Assembly (NCBI GenBank): GCA_030066885.1
Contig: JASJAT010000046.1
Span: forward strand, 1 to 37,892
DNA length: 37,892 nt
Origin: Arenicellales bacterium
GTDB lineage: Bacteria; Pseudomonadota; Gammaproteobacteria; Arenicellales; JAANXG01
Reading direction: 5' to 3'
Part shown: positions 4,358 through 12,937 of the stretch, piece by piece
How the letters are laid out: each line of letters starts with the position of its first letter
Numbering within the stretch: position 1 is the stretch's first letter
Notes under the pieces: generated by a model
Told to the model about the DNA's origin: nothing
Database searches by the model: none
Seen by the model: only the letters and a program-made list of their open reading frames with translations
Translations under genes and position numbers: made by a program

Positions 4358-5542
4358 ATGACAGATAATAAGCAAGATGAAACCATAGCGGTCCGCGCTG
4401 GAAGACATCCACGGCAAAATCATGGTGTCGTCAATCCACCGGTGTATCACGCATCGACGATTTTGTATCCTACGGTTGAAGAATTCGACGGGCGTGTAGA
4501 CCGGCGAGGTCAACCCGGCGAAGTGGTGTATGGATTACATGGGACGCCAACTACGTTTGCGCTGGAACAAGCCATGGTCGAGCTGGAAGGAAGTTACGGC
4601 TGTGTGGTGCTTCCATCCGGTCTTGCGGCGGTGGCGATGGCTATCCTGGCCTTCGTCAGGAGTGGTGACCACCTGCTTATGGTCGATTCTGTATACGAGC
4701 CGAGTCGCATATTTTGCGACAACGTGTTATCCAGTCTGGGTGCTGAAACGACTTACTACGACCCGTTAGTTGGATCAGGTATCGAGAAGCTGATCCGTCC
4801 AGAGACAAAAGCCGTATATCTTGAGTCACCTGGCTCGCTAACGTTTGAGGTCCAAGATGTCCCAGCCATTGCCGAGGTGGCGCATCGCCATGGTGTGAAA
4901 GTGTTGCTCGACAATACCTGGGCTACGCCGCTGTTTTTCAAGGCTTTTAGTCATGGTGTCGATGTATGTATTCATGCCGGTACGAAATACATAGCGGGAC
5001 ACTCAGACGTCATGGCCGGGCTGGTCACAGCTACCGAACAGACATATGCCACCGTTCGTCAAACAGTGCTGGAATTTGGTCAGTGTGCAGGACCGGATGA
5101 TACCTACACGGTGCTGCGTGGAATTCGAACCCTGCCAACTAGACTAAAACAACACAGCATACAGGGGTTAGAGATCGCGCGATGGTTGAGACAAAGACCA
5201 GAAGTCATGCGGGTGTTGCACCCCGCGTTGTCAGAGTGCCCTGGCCATGACATCTGGCAACGGGATTTTCTAGGCGCCACCAGTTTATTTGGTATTCAGC
5301 TCAAGGATTACACGAGAGGTGCCTTAACCGCCATGTTGGATGGCATGCAGTTATTCGGCTTAGGTGCAAGTTGGGGAGGTTTTGAAAGTCTACTGATTCC
5401 TGCGTACCCCGAGAAACTTCGCACCGCCGTGCCTTGGCAGGGGGAAGGCCCACTGCTCCGTATCCACGTCGGCCTCGAAAACACTAGGGATCTGATTACA
5501 GATTTAGATCAAGGTTTCGCTAGATTGAACGCGGTTTCATGA
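4358..5542 (+). CDS. metC: Cystathionine beta-lyase
   Basis: A 394-residue PLP enzyme of the trans-sulfuration family. It would cleave cystathionine to homocysteine, pyruvate and ammonia in methionine synthesis, in the cytoplasm. MetC-type signatures are 'NHGVVNPPVYHASTILYPT', 'YGLHGTPTTFALEQAMVELEG', 'YEPSRIFCDNVL', 'ESPGSLTFEVQDVPAIAEVAH' and 'DNTWATPLFF'. The PLP Schiff-base lysine is Lys210 in 'HAGTKYIAGHSDVMAG'. Length matches the family (about 390-400). A GGAGTGA ribosome site lies just upstream of the ATG. It is transcribed divergently from the alpha/beta hydrolase across a 96-bp spacer and followed by a repeat-rich region, so it is probably monocistronic. Other beta-lyases of this family (e.g. 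cysteine desulfhydrase-like) cannot be excluded. Confidence 0.85.
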   Translation: MTDNKQDETIAVRAGRHPRQNHGVVNPPVYHASTILYPTVEEFDGRVDRRGQPGEVVYGLHGTPTTFALEQAMVELEGSYGCVVLPSGLAAVAMAILAFVRSGDHLLMVDSVYEPSRIFCDNVLSSLGAETTYYDPLVGSGIEKLIRPETKAVYLESPGSLTFEVQDVPAIAEVAHRHGVKVLLDNTWATPLFFKAFSHGVDVCIHAGTKYIAGHSDVMAGLVTATEQTYATVRQTVLEFGQCAGPDDTYTVLRGIRTLPTRLKQHSIQGLEIARWLRQRPEVMRVLHPALSECPGHDIWQRDFLGATSLFGIQLKDYTRGALTAMLDGMQLFGLGASWGGFESLLIPAYPEKLRTAVPWQGEGPLLRIHVGLENTRDLITDLDQGFARLNAVS

Positions 5543-5550
5543 CGCCCGAG

Positions 5551-5665
5551 CCGATCAATCGCGGCGAGGGCGCCACTCCTACATAACAGTAGTGAGTAGC
5601 TTGTATCTATTAGCTCGCAACAAACTAACGGATACTGTACTAGCTACTCTTGACTAGTTACCTCA
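5551..5665 (+). repeat. Composite palindromic repeat, family A copy 1
   Basis: Begins with a REP-like head (CCGATCAATCGCGGCGAGGG ... CTCCTACATAAC) followed by an inverted repeat, GAGTAGCT-tGTATC ... GGATAC ... AGCTACTC. The same head-plus-palindrome organisation recurs at 6021 and, inverted, at 15598. It begins 8 bp after the metC stop codon and its stem could end metC transcription. Confidence 0.6.
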
Positions 5666-5766
5666 TTGTAGGAGGCACGCCCTTGGGTCAATCGAATCGC
5701 AGCGAGGGTGCCGCTTCTGCGAAGGTCTTTGCGAGGTTGTGAAAATAGACGTGGCAATCCACCTCG

Positions 5767-5922
5767 CCGTCATTCCCGCATGTCTTTAGCGGGAATCCAG
5801 TGAGTACGTATTTGAGTATTGTGTCTGTGCAGCAGGATACATGCTTTGTGATACTCCACGGTTCCAGTTGAATGACGCATGGATTCCGGCTCTACTCGCT
5901 TCGCTCCTCGGCCGGAATGACG
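5767..5922. repeat. Long 'TCATTCCCGC' inverted-repeat element, copy 1
   Basis: About 155 bp bounded by CGTCATTCCCGC on the left and GGCCGGAATGACG on the right. The left end has its own hairpin, ATTCCCGC-atgtcttta-GCGGGAAT. An 'ATGGATTCCGGCTC' segment near the right end is typical of dispersed proteobacterial elements of this class. A related, more degenerate copy is at 21786. Confidence 0.6.
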
Positions 5923-6020
5923 ATTTCTAAATGTAGGAACAAGTCCAGGGTAAGTCGACAAAACAAACGTTTATAGCAAAGAACAGTTCGTTCCTTTCTA
6001 ATCACCGTATCACCTTCGCG

Positions 6021-6148
6021 CCGATCGAATCGCGGTGAGAGCGGCTGATCCTACATAACTGTAGCTAGGTGCTAGTATCGAGCAGCAAGTAAAAATAACT
6101 AACCGATACCACACTCGATACTAGTCATTAGCCACTAGCTACTCTTTT
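6021..6148 (+). repeat. Composite palindromic repeat, family A copy 2
   Basis: The head CCGATCGAATCGCGGTGAGA...ATCCTACATAACTGTAG matches copy 1. The following inverted repeat pairs AGCTAGGTGCTAGTATCGAG (6063-6082) with CTCGATACTAG...ACTAGCT (6114-6140). On the plus strand it is followed by ACTCTTTTTT, so it looks like a factor-independent terminator for transcripts arriving from metC. The T run touches the stop codon of the convergent cyclase gene. Confidence 0.6.
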
Positions 6149-7906
6149 TTATTCCGGTAACCCTGCGGCCCGCAGACCTTCTAAGTAATGCTCTAAATCG
6201 GCCTTGTGCTTATATCGGAGTGAGCGAGCGTAACTGCTGATTGTGAAGTCGGGATCAAGTTCAAGCAGCTTCTTTTTACATTCGTCGACCTGGGAAATCT
6301 GATTCAGCTTGGCATGGCAGGAAATACGGTAGGCTTGATGGGTCGCTTTCGGTTCCGGTACGCGCTTGAAGACGTCTATTGCATCCTCATATTTGTGCGC
6401 TGCGTGCAGCACGATCCCGAGATTAGCGTAATAGGCTTCGGGATGAAACGGATCCAGGCGGATCACCTTGTTCATCCAGTCTACACCTTCATCCGGTCTG
6501 CCGACATAAGCAAGTAGATATCCTCTCTGCGCTAACAGCAGGGGATTGTTCGGATTCAATTCTAGACCGCGTTCATTGTGATATTCGGCTTCGTCGTATA
6601 CCCGTCCCAGCAGGCGAATTTCGGAAGTGATACGGTGGCATTCGCTATCTTCTCTATCGAGTTCCATCGATCTTTTAGCGGCTTCCACACACCTTTTCCA
6701 GAGTTTGTCGGAATCCGGCATGTAGTCGCGGGTCCAGGCCTGGCCCACAGTACAGGAAAGCCATGCCCACGCCTGGGCGAAATTTGGATCCAATTCAACC
6801 GCTTTTTCGAGCAGCTGGACTCCTTGCCGACACGCCTCTTGTTCATACTTGTGATGACACTCACGGCCTCGCAAGAAATAATCGTAGGCTACCATTTGAT
6901 CGGTCCCTTTGCGCCGACCTCGTTCCAGGTCTGCGGCCTCGATGCGTTCCGGCAAGGCGGTTACGATTGATTGTGTCACTTCGTCTTGAACTGCAAAGAT
7001 GTCGTCGAGATCCCGATCGTAATTTTTTGCCCAAAGGTGATTGCCGTTACTGGCGTCAATTAATTGAACGGTAATGCGGACCCGGTTTCCGGCGCGACGC
7101 ACACTGCCTTCGACAACGTAGCGGGCTCCCAGCTCCTTCCCGACCTGTTGAATCTTTACTGCTTGCCCCTTGTACGTAAACGTTGAGTTGCGGGCGATCA
7201 CAAAAAAAGAATGGAAACGGGAAAGCGCAGTGATGATGTCCTCGGTTAGACCGTCAGCGAAATACTCCTGCTCGGCATCACCGGACATATTGGTGAAAGG
7301 AAGAATCGCAATCGAAGGTCTGGAAGCGGTAGGGGACAACGTGGTGGTTGTCGAGTCCGACGATACTGAAGGTGTCGAAGTGTCGATCCTGACTTTGTGT
7401 GCCAGGACCGGGTCTTCGATGTTTTTTACTTCCTGCGGCCCGAGAGATTCGTACTGCAAGGAAAGTTTCGTCCCAACCGCGCTACGTATGGATTCTGAGA
7501 CACAGATACCGCCCGGTTCTGCCAGGCTCTCCAAGCGCGCTGCGACGTTGACCCCGTTGCCATATATATCACCACGGTCCTCGATCACATCGCCAAGATT
7601 AACCCCCATGCGGAACTTGACACATTCATTGTCGGGCCGGTCTTGACTGCGTTGTTGCAGGTCCTTCTGGGCCTCTACCGCACACGCAAGCGCATCACTC
7701 GCCGCGTTGAAACAGGCCAGGACGGCGTCTCCGGCATAGTGCACAACTTTGCCGCCATGCTTGTTCACCGTGGAAGAAATGAGGTCGAGACAATGGCTGA
7801 GCCTACGGTGGGTTGCGTCCTCATCCTGCCCAGTTAGCTTACTGTAGCCTGCAACGTCGGCGTAAAGAATGGCAGCTAGTCTTCTGGGCAGTGGATCATC
7901 AGTCAT
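6149..7906 (-). CDS. Class III adenylate/guanylate cyclase with TolB-like and TPR regions
   Basis: A 585-residue soluble signalling protein. The class III cyclase catalytic domain (about 10-180) carries both metal-binding aspartates, Asp17 in 'YADVAGYS' and Asp60 in 'YAGDAVL', and transition-state residues Asn120 and Arg124 in 'NGVNVAARLE', so it should be active in making cAMP (or cGMP). A low-complexity Ser/Thr linker (about 180-200) leads to a TolB-like segment 'SIAILPFTNMSGDAEQEYFADGLTEDI', then TPR repeats to the C terminus. This architecture is common in rhizobia and marine proteobacteria; the TPR part probably binds a regulatory partner. No transmembrane helix is seen. The ATG start has no clear Shine-Dalgarno. 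A truncated relative lies at 12611. Confidence 0.85.
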   Translation of the reverse strand: MTDDPLPRRLAAILYADVAGYSKLTGQDEDATHRRLSHCLDLISSTVNKHGGKVVHYAGDAVLACFNAASDALACAVEAQKDLQQRSQDRPDNECVKFRMGVNLGDVIEDRGDIYGNGVNVAARLESLAEPGGICVSESIRSAVGTKLSLQYESLGPQEVKNIEDPVLAHKVRIDTSTPSVSSDSTTTTLSPTASRPSIAILPFTNMSGDAEQEYFADGLTEDIITALSRFHSFFVIARNSTFTYKGQAVKIQQVGKELGARYVVEGSVRRAGNRVRITVQLIDASNGNHLWAKNYDRDLDDIFAVQDEVTQSIVTALPERIEAADLERGRRKGTDQMVAYDYFLRGRECHHKYEQEACRQGVQLLEKAVELDPNFAQAWAWLSCTVGQAWTRDYMPDSDKLWKRCVEAAKRSMELDREDSECHRITSEIRLLGRVYDEAEYHNERGLELNPNNPLLLAQRGYLLAYVGRPDEGVDWMNKVIRLDPFHPEAYYANLGIVLHAAHKYEDAIDVFKRVPEPKATHQAYRISCHAKLNQISQVDECKKKLLELDPDFTISSYARSLRYKHKADLEHYLEGLRAAGLPE

Positions 7907-7975
7907 AGTTAGTAATACTAGTACGGCAGATTGGGCTGGGTATTATACGAGTATGTGCAAGGAGGATCGACGCTA

Positions 7976-8052
7976 CCGGGGACAGTATACTTTTTAACAA
8001 CGTTGGCTGAGCTCTACGTAATATAATAGTTAAAAAAGTATACTGTCCCCGG
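7976..8052. repeat. 'GGGGACAGTATACTTTTT' palindrome, copy R1
   Basis: A near-perfect inverted repeat: GGGGACAGTATACTTTTT-AAC on the left (from 7976) and its complement on the right (8029-8052), differing by one extra A, with a 30-bp loop that starts AACGTTGGCT. It ends 2 bp before the sulfatase stop codon and lies about 70 bp upstream of the cyclase start. The second copy is at 9626-9741. REP-like; possibly of the type moved by RAYT (IS200-like) transposases. Confidence 0.75.
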
Positions 8053-8054
8053 TT

Positions 8055-9626
8055 TTACCACTGACCGATCAAGATACCCAGTTCTGCGTCCCGTTCAGGA
8101 CCCATTTCAAAAAGCAGATCGGTGGGAATCTCGGTTCGCATTCGTCTTTGTCGGATCCAGTTAAACAAAAGCTCATGTAAGTCACGGCGCTCTGACTCGA
8201 ATGCAGGGTCAGCTCCAAGGTCGCGATACTCTTCTGGGTCATTCTTTAAGTCAAACAGTTGTGGTCGAAAACCTTCATACAGGACATACTTCCAGTCGGC
8301 AGTGCGAATCATATAAGCCCGACATTGATAAGGGTGTAGATTGAGCAACGTGCGCGGCCCCCGTTCGCTGTAATCGATTTCGCTAACGACGTACTCGCGC
8401 CAATCACTGACTGAACCGGTACCTCGTATCAATGGAAGTAAAGAGCGTCCTTCCATACGTTCGTGGTTTTGCGTACCACCGACGTAGTCCACCAGCGTGG
8501 GGACAATATCTATGGCTTCCACAGGTTCATCGTTTGTTGTACCACGCGTTGCGTCTGCGCCGGAACTGGGGTCGTAAAGGATTAGGGGGATGCGAACTGA
8601 AGGTTCGTGGAAAAGGTCCTTCTCACCCAGCCAATGGTCCCCCAAATAGTCGCCATGGTCTGCAGTAAAGACGACCATGGTGTTGTGCATGAGTTGTTTG
8701 GATTCCAGGAATTCGAACACACGCCCAAGATGATCATCGATTTGTTTGATCAATCCCATGTAAGTGGGAATTACCCGGCGACGTACTTCCTCGCGTGAAA
8801 AATTTTGACTGTATTCCTGTTGCATAAAGGCGCCGTAGACCGGGTGGGGGTTTTGTCGTTCACACTCATGTCGTACGGCTGGTACGACTTGATCCTCTGA
8901 ATAAACGGCGTGATAAGGGGCCGGCGCAAGATAGGGCCAGTGTGGCTTGATGTAGCTCAGGTGTATGCACCAACTCTGATCATGGCTGACGGTGTCTAAG
9001 AACTCCAGCGCCCGATTGGTGACAAAGGCAGTCTCCGAATGTTCTTCCGGAATAATGGCGGGTTTGTCCGCGTGACGCATTTGCCAGCCACTGACGTGTC
9101 GCCCGCTCCTGTCGATTGCGCTGTTGGCGTAGAGCTCCCAAGGATTGTCACCGGCGAAACCTTTTGCTCGCAGGTAATCGTTGTAGCCTAAATGGCTGGG
9201 TAGTACGGGGTCGGGGTACAATCCCGCAAAATCCTCGTAGAATTCGAAACCGTCTTGTGCGACAAGTCGACCTATTTTTGTATCATCGCCAATTCCTAAA
9301 CGTGCCAAAGCTTTGTGGTTAGGTGATGCCTCTGATTTTCCTATGAGTGTGGAGTGTATGTTTGCATCACGTAGATAGTCACCCAGGGTTAATTCCCCTA
9401 TCTTGATTGGATCCTTGTTTGCCATGACCCCGTGCGACGACATATAGCGTCCTGTGTAAAAACTCGCCCGGGAGGGCCCGCACAGCGGCGCTTGGCAATA
9501 AGCGCGAGTGAATCGAACGCCTTTCTTGGCGAGGCTATCGATATGCGGGGTTTGTAGATGCGGATGTCCGTAACACGATAGGTAGTCCCACCGCAGTTGA
9601 TCACACATGATAAACAGAATGTTCAC
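8055..9626 (-). CDS. Type I (formylglycine) sulfatase
   Basis: A 523-residue enzyme of the alkaline phosphatase-like sulfatase family, hydrolysing a sulfate ester (or possibly a phosphonate/phosphate ester). It begins 'VNILFIMCDQLRWDY', the usual metal-binding N-terminal strand, with no signal peptide, so it is probably cytoplasmic. Cys49 in 'LCGPSRASFYTGR' is the C-x-P-S-R site matured to formylglycine; 'SYIKPHWPYLAP' and 'VFTADHGDYLGDHWLGEKD' hold further metal and active-site residues. The ORF track extends to 10019, but that extension translates the palindromic repeat ('KYTVPGLIQKYTVP') and antisense of the next gene. I place the start at the GTG overlapping the repeat edge. No formylglycine-generating enzyme is in the window. 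Choline-sulfatase or arylsulfatase are possible; the substrate is unknown. Confidence 0.8.
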   Translation of the reverse strand: MNILFIMCDQLRWDYLSCYGHPHLQTPHIDSLAKKGVRFTRAYCQAPLCGPSRASFYTGRYMSSHGVMANKDPIKIGELTLGDYLRDANIHSTLIGKSEASPNHKALARLGIGDDTKIGRLVAQDGFEFYEDFAGLYPDPVLPSHLGYNDYLRAKGFAGDNPWELYANSAIDRSGRHVSGWQMRHADKPAIIPEEHSETAFVTNRALEFLDTVSHDQSWCIHLSYIKPHWPYLAPAPYHAVYSEDQVVPAVRHECERQNPHPVYGAFMQQEYSQNFSREEVRRRVIPTYMGLIKQIDDHLGRVFEFLESKQLMHNTMVVFTADHGDYLGDHWLGEKDLFHEPSVRIPLILYDPSSGADATRGTTNDEPVEAIDIVPTLVDYVGGTQNHERMEGRSLLPLIRGTGSVSDWREYVVSEIDYSERGPRTLLNLHPYQCRAYMIRTADWKYVLYEGFRPQLFDLKNDPEEYRDLGADPAFESERRDLHELLFNWIRQRRMRTEIPTDLLFEMGPERDAELGILIGQW

Positions 9627-9741
9627 GGGGACAGTATACTTTTGGATTAAACCGGGGACAGTATACTTTTTAACAACGTTGGCTAGTCTCAAAGCGAATA
9701 CGACAGTTAAAAAGTATACTGTCCCCAGTATACTGTCCCCG
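9626..9741. repeat. Nested 'GGGGACAGTATACTTTTT' palindrome, copy R2
   Basis: A full inverted repeat (left arm 9652-9674, right arm 9706-9726, loop starting AACGTTGGCT as in R1) is flanked by a second, outer pair of partial arms: 9626-9643 and 9727-9741. The whole 126-bp region between the divergent sulfatase and ureidoglycolate lyase-like starts consists of this element. The arms contain AGTATACT, so each carries a -10-like TATACT on both strands. Confidence 0.75.
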
Positions 9742-9752
9742 AGGGTAGAACC

Positions 9753-10421
9753 ATGATTGATGCAGTTGCGCCCAATTTGGCGCCAAAAGGCACAGACATG
9801 CCGACTTTGCCGACTTATCAGATTCCACTGGTAGTAGCGACTGATGAGAGTATAAAAGGCTACGGTCATTTGGTCGAAGACCCCGAAAAATGCCAGGTCG
9901 AGATCGTTCGATGGCCAGCGCAAGGCTGGCGTCCTGTTGATCCCGATACTGGTGATCAGGGTGGAACCACCGAAGGGATTTTTAACTTTTTCTGGCGAGG
10001 CAATACATTGCATGCGCACAATGCTTCGGTAGTCAATCAGAATGAATATGTGTTGGGATGGAGTTGTGAGCCACAGAGGGCATCAGACGATGACATATCG
10101 ATCCCACGTGACAAGGTTCTGCTGTGGCACGCCAACTATCACCCGGACGGCGGGCAGCTATTCTTTCCGCTGGATTCGGGCTCATTCATTTCCCCCCTGG
10201 CCCTACCGGGCGATGACGTGAAACCGGGTGACTTTGTTGCATTTTGGTTTGATGGCTCGCAGGGGTTATACATCAATCCAGGTGTCTGGCACGAAGCGGT
10301 CTTTCCGGTTAATGATTCGCATCGTTTCTTCGATAAGCAAGGCAAGGTGCACGCCAGGGTAAGCGTCGATTTCAGCAAAGAGTTTGGGTGTTATCTCTGT
10401 GCTTCATTGATCGAACCTTAA
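9753..10421 (+). CDS. Ureidoglycolate lyase-like cupin protein
   Basis: A 222-residue protein that I assign to the ureidoglycolate lyase (AllA-type) cupin family, which splits ureidoglycolate to glyoxylate and urea, the last step of purine ring breakdown. The C-terminal half fits: 'PGDFVAFWFDGSQGLYINPGVWHEAVFPV' followed by 'VHARVSVDFSKEFGCYL'. The N-terminal part ('VRWPAQGWRPVDPDTGDQGGTTEG', 'LLWHANYHPDGGQLFFPLD') is longer than in E. coli AllA (about 160 aa). GAGGG lies 7 nt before the ATG, at the very edge of the repeat. A second ATG at 9798 is a possible start. It is 13 bp from the next gene. The urate operon 16 kb downstream makes a purine role plausible but does not prove it. Confidence 0.65.
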   Translation: MIDAVAPNLAPKGTDMPTLPTYQIPLVVATDESIKGYGHLVEDPEKCQVEIVRWPAQGWRPVDPDTGDQGGTTEGIFNFFWRGNTLHAHNASVVNQNEYVLGWSCEPQRASDDDISIPRDKVLLWHANYHPDGGQLFFPLDSGSFISPLALPGDDVKPGDFVAFWFDGSQGLYINPGVWHEAVFPVNDSHRFFDKQGKVHARVSVDFSKEFGCYLCASLIEP

Positions 10422-12610: not shown

Positions 12611-12937
12611 GTGACTGGCAATACGAAGCAGCCTAGCCCGATGGCTCCAGACAACGACCGCCTACCTAGAAAGCTGAGCGCTATTCTTTATGCCGATGTC
12701 GCCGGCTACAGCCGGCTCATGGGTGATGATGAGGACCGGACACATCGACTGTTGAGGGACTACCTCGATGTGATCACAGCAATCGTTTCCTCGCACGGCG
12801 GCCACGTTGTGCACTATGCCGGCGATGCGGTGCTTGCGGAGTTCTCTACGGCGACGTGGCAAGATTATTACGCTTATGAACCGTATAACGACGGTCTTTG
12901 CGACGGCTTGCGCAAAGCATGGCAAATCGACCGATAA
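12611..12937 (+). pseudogene. Truncated class III cyclase with unrelated tail
   Basis: A 108-codon frame. Residues about 20-80 closely match the start of the intact cyclase at 6149-7906 ('LSAILYADVAGYSRL', 'HGGHVVHYAGDAVLAEF') and keep both metal aspartates. Right after 'AEFSTA' similarity stops, and the final 27 residues ('TWQDYYAYEPYNDG...') are unrelated to any cyclase. The transition-state Asn/Arg, the rest of the catalytic domain and the TPR part are missing, so it cannot be an active cyclase. Starts are GTG 12611 or ATG 12641. A REP-like hairpin follows 4 bp after the stop. Most likely a deletion remnant fused to other DNA; a short functional decoy cannot be excluded. Confidence 0.7.

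Follow-up and report, generated by a model that had tools for sequence, protein, structure and literature searches.

The window analyzed here, a stretch of 37,892 nucleotides from the draft genome of an Arenicellales bacterium, contains a sulfatase gene with a palindrome at either end, which raises the question of whether gene and repeats form a mobile unit or whether such repeats lie at gene ends in general. An earlier note on this DNA had described two palindromes with common arms and a common loop start, the second one with a nested outer arm pair, and all of this was confirmed. Palindrome R1 (7975 to 8053, no strand) has two arms of 21 nt each (7975 to 7995 and 8033 to 8053) that are 100% complementary, with 37 nt between them and 73 bp from GGGG to CCCC. 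Palindrome R2 (9627 to 9741 as a whole) consists of an inner palindrome (9651 to 9726, no strand; arms at 9651 to 9671 and 9709 to 9726), with the same arms and the same first 10 loop bases (AACGTTGGCT) as R1, and of two partial outer arms, the left one (9627 to 9643) on the plus strand and the right one (9727 to 9741), a 14-bp repeat of the arm end plus G, on the minus strand. The 17-base arm motif was found 6 times in the window (up to 3 mismatches; 0.06 expected), and RNA folding of both R1 and R2 was far better than that of shuffled sequence (for R1, -38.2 kcal/mol; z, -8.8).

The sulfatase (8055 to 9626, minus strand) encodes 523 amino acids from a GTG start to a TAA stop, with a match to PF00884 (E value, 2.7e-51) and the type I sulfatase motif CGPSR. 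Its stop (8055 to 8057) is separated from the ACCGGGG arm end of R1 by 1 bp and from the GGGG core by 4 bp, so that the closeness described earlier holds but not the exact figure of 2 bp. At the other end, the GTG (9624 to 9626) abuts the outer left arm of R2 and overlaps it, as had been claimed, only if its first base is counted as the G of the arm end CCCCG. The arm at 9627 to 9640 also gives TATACT 6 bases before the GTG, which, going by its letters, could be a -10 box producing a leaderless transcript. The gene is full length, and its ends are those of the nearest homologues (63% identical, in genomes G013 and G036), which have ATG where GTG stands here and an identical last residue. Given this agreement in start codon position and final residue, we rejected a truncated sulfatase, and the suggestion that the locus had been trimmed by repeat-mediated recombination found no support.

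The arms of R1 and R2 (TTAAACCGGGGACAGTATACTTTTTAAC) belong to a large repeat family, with about 197 occurrences in the draft genome (4.1 Mb) and hardly any in three congeners. These counts refer to the 20-mer GGGGACAGTATACTTTTTAA with up to 3 mismatches (197 matches versus 0, 2, and 5 in the congeners); none of the 108 other genomes of the order that were searched contained this 20-mer as an exact match. The exact 15-mer GGGGACAGTATACTT had 149 copies in the draft genome and was present in low copy number in 8 of 40 relatives. Given that the family is, as far as searched, confined to one species, it is probably young. A scan of genome contigs for a closer relative, in a set that may omit the records nearest to this genome, gave at best 73 to 74% at the lyase-like gene, and a literature search for GTATACTGTCCCC retrieved no paper. 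Genome-wide counts come from sequence searches of the draft genome, while placement statistics come from 860 kb of stretches selected for holding elements, from which 58 inverted pairs and 32 unpaired matches were extracted. The arm is ca. 28 bp long, (TT)AAACCGGGGACAGTATACTTTTTAAC, with the part from GGGG through TTTTTA conserved at 94 to 100%. Several contigs (including L112, L121, L132, L136, and L155) stop within ca. 100 bp of an arm, indicating that the family breaks the assembly. The same element, with a near-identical loop, was found at two contig ends (L086, 15263 to 15368, and L155, 5030 to 5135), which may reflect either a true duplication or a single locus that was assembled twice.

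The placement of the arms relative to genes followed a strict pattern, with an unusually exact anchoring to gene ends. Using stop distances that depend on a simple gene caller (the sulfatase open reading frame [ORF] runs over R2, and some small genes were missed), 67 of the 81 stop-facing arms in pairs were within 15 bp of a stop codon, and 22 of the 81 were exactly 3 bp behind it. Many single arms occupied the same position. In tandem gaps, 17 of 20 elements were located no more than 15 bp from the stop, compared to 7.2 under uniform placement (0 of 20,000 simulations). The share of gaps with an element in the sampled regions was 26 of 99 for convergent, 22 of 470 for tandem, and 2 of 97 for divergent gaps. 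Convergent gaps were almost completely filled: the DNA outside the element had a median of 10 bp, versus a median of 165 bp for gaps without an element, and this residual was ≤26 bp in 21 of the 26 element-bearing gaps, while 11 of the 73 element-free gaps were that short (P = 2.5e-9). Total gap length was not longer with an element (127 bp) than without one (165 bp; P = 0.68). Comparison of four gaps with congener G002 showed genes ending at the identical codon or within one codon, and these stops are therefore native. A stop-anchored motif search in G002 itself showed no enriched motif. Since stop anchoring applies to the whole family, a repeat touching the end of a gene is a family rule and not a mark of the sulfatase.

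This bears directly on the proposal of the earlier note that the sulfatase is a mobile cassette. On this reading, the gene would have arrived, or would still move, as a unit with R1 and R2 as its boundaries, either by recombination between the palindromes or by means of a transposase using one arm of each. The boundaries within a few bases on both sides agree with this reading, as does the loop start of R1 and R2, common to no other sampled pair. Along similar lines, the sulfatase is absent from the corresponding junction in the congeners, and the closest relatives found belong to another family of the Arenicellales. However, what the congeners lack is a block of 4.2 kb that begins at 5543 rather than at R1, and this left edge carries no R1/R2-type arm. 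In G001 and G003, the genes matching 4358 to 5542 and 9753 to 10421 are adjacent, with ca. 120 bp between them, including a GGGGTCAG-type palindrome (GGGGTCAGAG) beside the end of the upstream gene, and in G002 there is ca. 1.2 kb of other DNA at this junction. The window holds there a repeat-rich stretch (5543 to 6148), an adenylate/guanylate cyclase-TPR gene (6149 to 7906, minus strand; PF00211 plus TPR) not found at the junction in G001 to G003, R1, the sulfatase, and R2, followed by the gene at 9753 to 10421 (plus strand; ureidoglycolate lyase domain, PF04115), which is conserved in congeners and whose start codon is 11 bp from R2. Moreover, the GC and GC3 values of the sulfatase match those of the neighboring genes, and in G013 and G036, neither of which has a copy of the exact arm 15-mer, the sulfatase is surrounded by none of the neighbors that it has in the window.

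Double flanking is within what chance would give. Scaling to ca. 119 element loci among ca. 3,500 genes, about 4 genes should be flanked on both sides, which makes a cassette unnecessary. The search that had been advised for other flanked genes and for empty sites with a single repeat did reveal the repeat throughout the genome, but neither of these configurations. No empty site differing by the gene and one repeat was detected, the congener junctions differing by 4.2 kb including the cyclase, and no other gene had paired elements within 150 bp on both sides in an automatic scan that also missed the sulfatase (its ORF overruns R2); two loose cases (L105 and L109) involve single arms. We therefore consider the cassette very improbable. 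The sulfatase probably lies between two palindromes by chance, although, given the common loop start, the repeats could conceivably have had some part in shaping this site.

The remainder of the block and its surroundings contain further repeated sequences. Repeats of two types occur between 5543 and 6148: GTAG-type REP sequences, of which there are several, and another type with GTCATTCC...GGAATGAC. Cyclase-TPR genes are abundant, with 72 matches to the gene at 6149 to 7906 in the same genome and 45 in G002. An ORF of 108 amino acids at 12611 to 12937, with no Pfam match, has a start resembling the N-terminal part of the cyclase genes and is possibly a gene remnant.

As for the kind of repeat, the earlier note had guessed a REP-like type, which was right in kind: the palindromes form a dispersed family of the TIRYT/REP type. 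TIRYTs are HUH tyrosine transposases related to RAYTs. The arms contain GGGGWSAS (GGGGACAG; consensus taken from PMC3733652 and PMC6006769), the signature of the terminal inverted repeats of TIRYT-type HUH transposases (PMC3733652; PMC6006769, subclass 2.1); such repeats also occur singly, as dimers, and in groups (PMC3733652; PMC6006769). The dispersal of the R1/R2 arms as singles and pairs corresponds to this behavior. Elsewhere in the order, genome G037 has a Y1_Tnp gene flanked by GGGGACAGTATACTTA inverted repeats that are nearly identical to the arms described here, and the congeners have Y1_Tnp genes (open frames of 238 to 244 amino acids) between inverted repeats of 25 to 35 bp with GGGGTCAGAG or GGGGACAGAT. 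Searches with Pfam and with the G037 protein found no transposase between exact R1/R2-type repeats in the genome of the window (assembly 89% complete). A transposase gene does exist elsewhere in the genome, where the earlier note had advised looking for one, but this Y1_Tnp gene (C49), the only one found, is not flanked by these repeats, which points to a transposase of the arm family that has been lost or was left unassembled. Classed by sequence and kinship, and with no flanking transposase in its own genome, the arm family is putatively of the TIRYT type. A separate RAYT-like gene goes with the GTAG REPs of the genus: in G001, a Y1_Tnp gene (L334, 1302 to 1924) is flanked by GTAGGAGCGGCGCC repeats.

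Transposition of whole elements predicts related loops, and among the extracted elements mostly none were seen; the exceptions were loops carrying GTAG-type REPs, three long loops, and those of R1 and R2. REPs of the GTAGGAGCGGCGCC type were found inside the loops of 15 of the 58 elements (e.g., L088, 10548 to 10663, and L101, 12117 to 12234). The 10 bases common to R1 and R2 were the longest loop start shared among the 58 pairs, apart from the element on two contig ends, and by our own estimate ca. 0.006 such cases would be expected over all loop ends compared. This suggests, from the sequences at hand, a local copying or conversion event, in which R1 and R2 probably copied loop sequence. No clear signal of target-site duplications was obtained (4 bases were common to 6 of 56 elements at a single offset, which lies inside the TTAA of the arm).

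Alternatively, the 28-bp arm itself could be the spreading unit, put precisely behind native stops or copied inverted by template switching, with host gap DNA as the loop. In this possible but doubtful scenario, palindromes would be the product of two gene ends facing each other or of an arm duplicated in inverted orientation. The unrelated loops, the single arms in the same position behind stops, the native stops, and the convergent gaps that are exactly filled and not lengthened all speak for such an arm-by-arm addition. Repeated addition is also favored by the ca. 27-fold enrichment of GTAG REPs in loops over the sampled sequence and by the truncated older arms outside newer ones, which recur in the family (13 of 147 arms versus 1.4 expected). 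However, 10 of the 58 elements are exactly 73 bp long, suggesting a fixed-size unit, and five orthologous gaps differed from those of G002 by +89, +81, -5, +78, and +1 bp and were too diverged to show the origin of the loops. We also count against it that, to our knowledge, no enzyme adds arms this way, and we regard it as rather unlikely. A further reading, in which the arm is a functional 3'-end element of the host (terminator or RNA-processing site) under selection and not a mobile repeat, would fit the strongly fixed orientation and distance to the stop. Yet arms are nearly absent from congeners, only ca. 10% of the sampled genes carry one in regions selected for containing arms, partner arms were also found upstream of start codons, and similar arms flank transposase genes elsewhere, which makes a host signal highly improbable.

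The explanation that we consider likely is that R1 and R2 are copies of a species-restricted family of REP-like palindromes with terminal inverted repeat arms of the TIRYT kind, spread by a TIRYT and forming hairpins at mRNA 3' ends. As observed, the highly conserved arms are scattered over the genome, mostly as inverted pairs, a few bases behind stops, and they nearly fill convergent gaps. A TIRYT now lost or unassembled would have spread them, and the arm pairs would form hairpins with REP-like effects on transcript or translation. Of the two elements at the sulfatase, the one behind the stop is in the position typical of the family and the nested one occupies the divergent gap next to the start, and finding both is within chance. 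The combination of exact, conserved arms anchored at native stops with unrelated loops could have arisen in two ways, by insertion of whole palindromes followed by drift of the loops or by addition of single arms around native gap DNA. Work cited in PMC12306157 reports ribosome stalling by Escherichia coli REPs located no more than 15 nt from a stop, and the ends of GTAG REPs often supply the stop codon (PMC3733652). By analogy, arms of the R1/R2 type may affect expression in a similar way. Species-restricted arms fixed at stops around unrelated loops are a good test case for whether REP-like repeats originate as whole elements or arm by arm, and the false lead of a mobile sulfatase cassette is removed.

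In integron gene cassettes, a gene is closely bounded by palindromic attC sites with variable loops; here, in contrast, the arms are perfect and genome-wide, the same arms bound unrelated gaps, and no cassette array was seen. Families of TIRYT terminal inverted repeats (PMC3733652; PMC6006769) resemble the R1/R2 family in their GGGGWSAS arms, in occurring as singles, dimers, and clusters, and in related genomes that hold a transposase between such repeats, but the genome of the window has none between exact repeats, and placement behind stops is much stricter than the text of PMC3733652 and PMC6006769 gives for such repeats. The REPINs of Pseudomonas fluorescens SBW25 (PMC3116915; PMC8049555) likewise consist of inverted pairs, with some single remnants, and R1/R2-type pairs share with them the conserved ends, the diverse spacer, and the predicted capacity to form hairpins. 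Unlike REPINs, their arms are unrelated to GTAG REPs, most loops have no common sequence, and loop length varies widely. The arm consensus does not end in the GTAG tetranucleotide and differs in sequence from GTAG REPs (PMC3733652), although both kinds coexist in this genome, with GTAG REPs inside some loops. They are alike in preferring convergent and tandem gaps and in a repeat end that can supply the stop codon, TAG there and TAA here.
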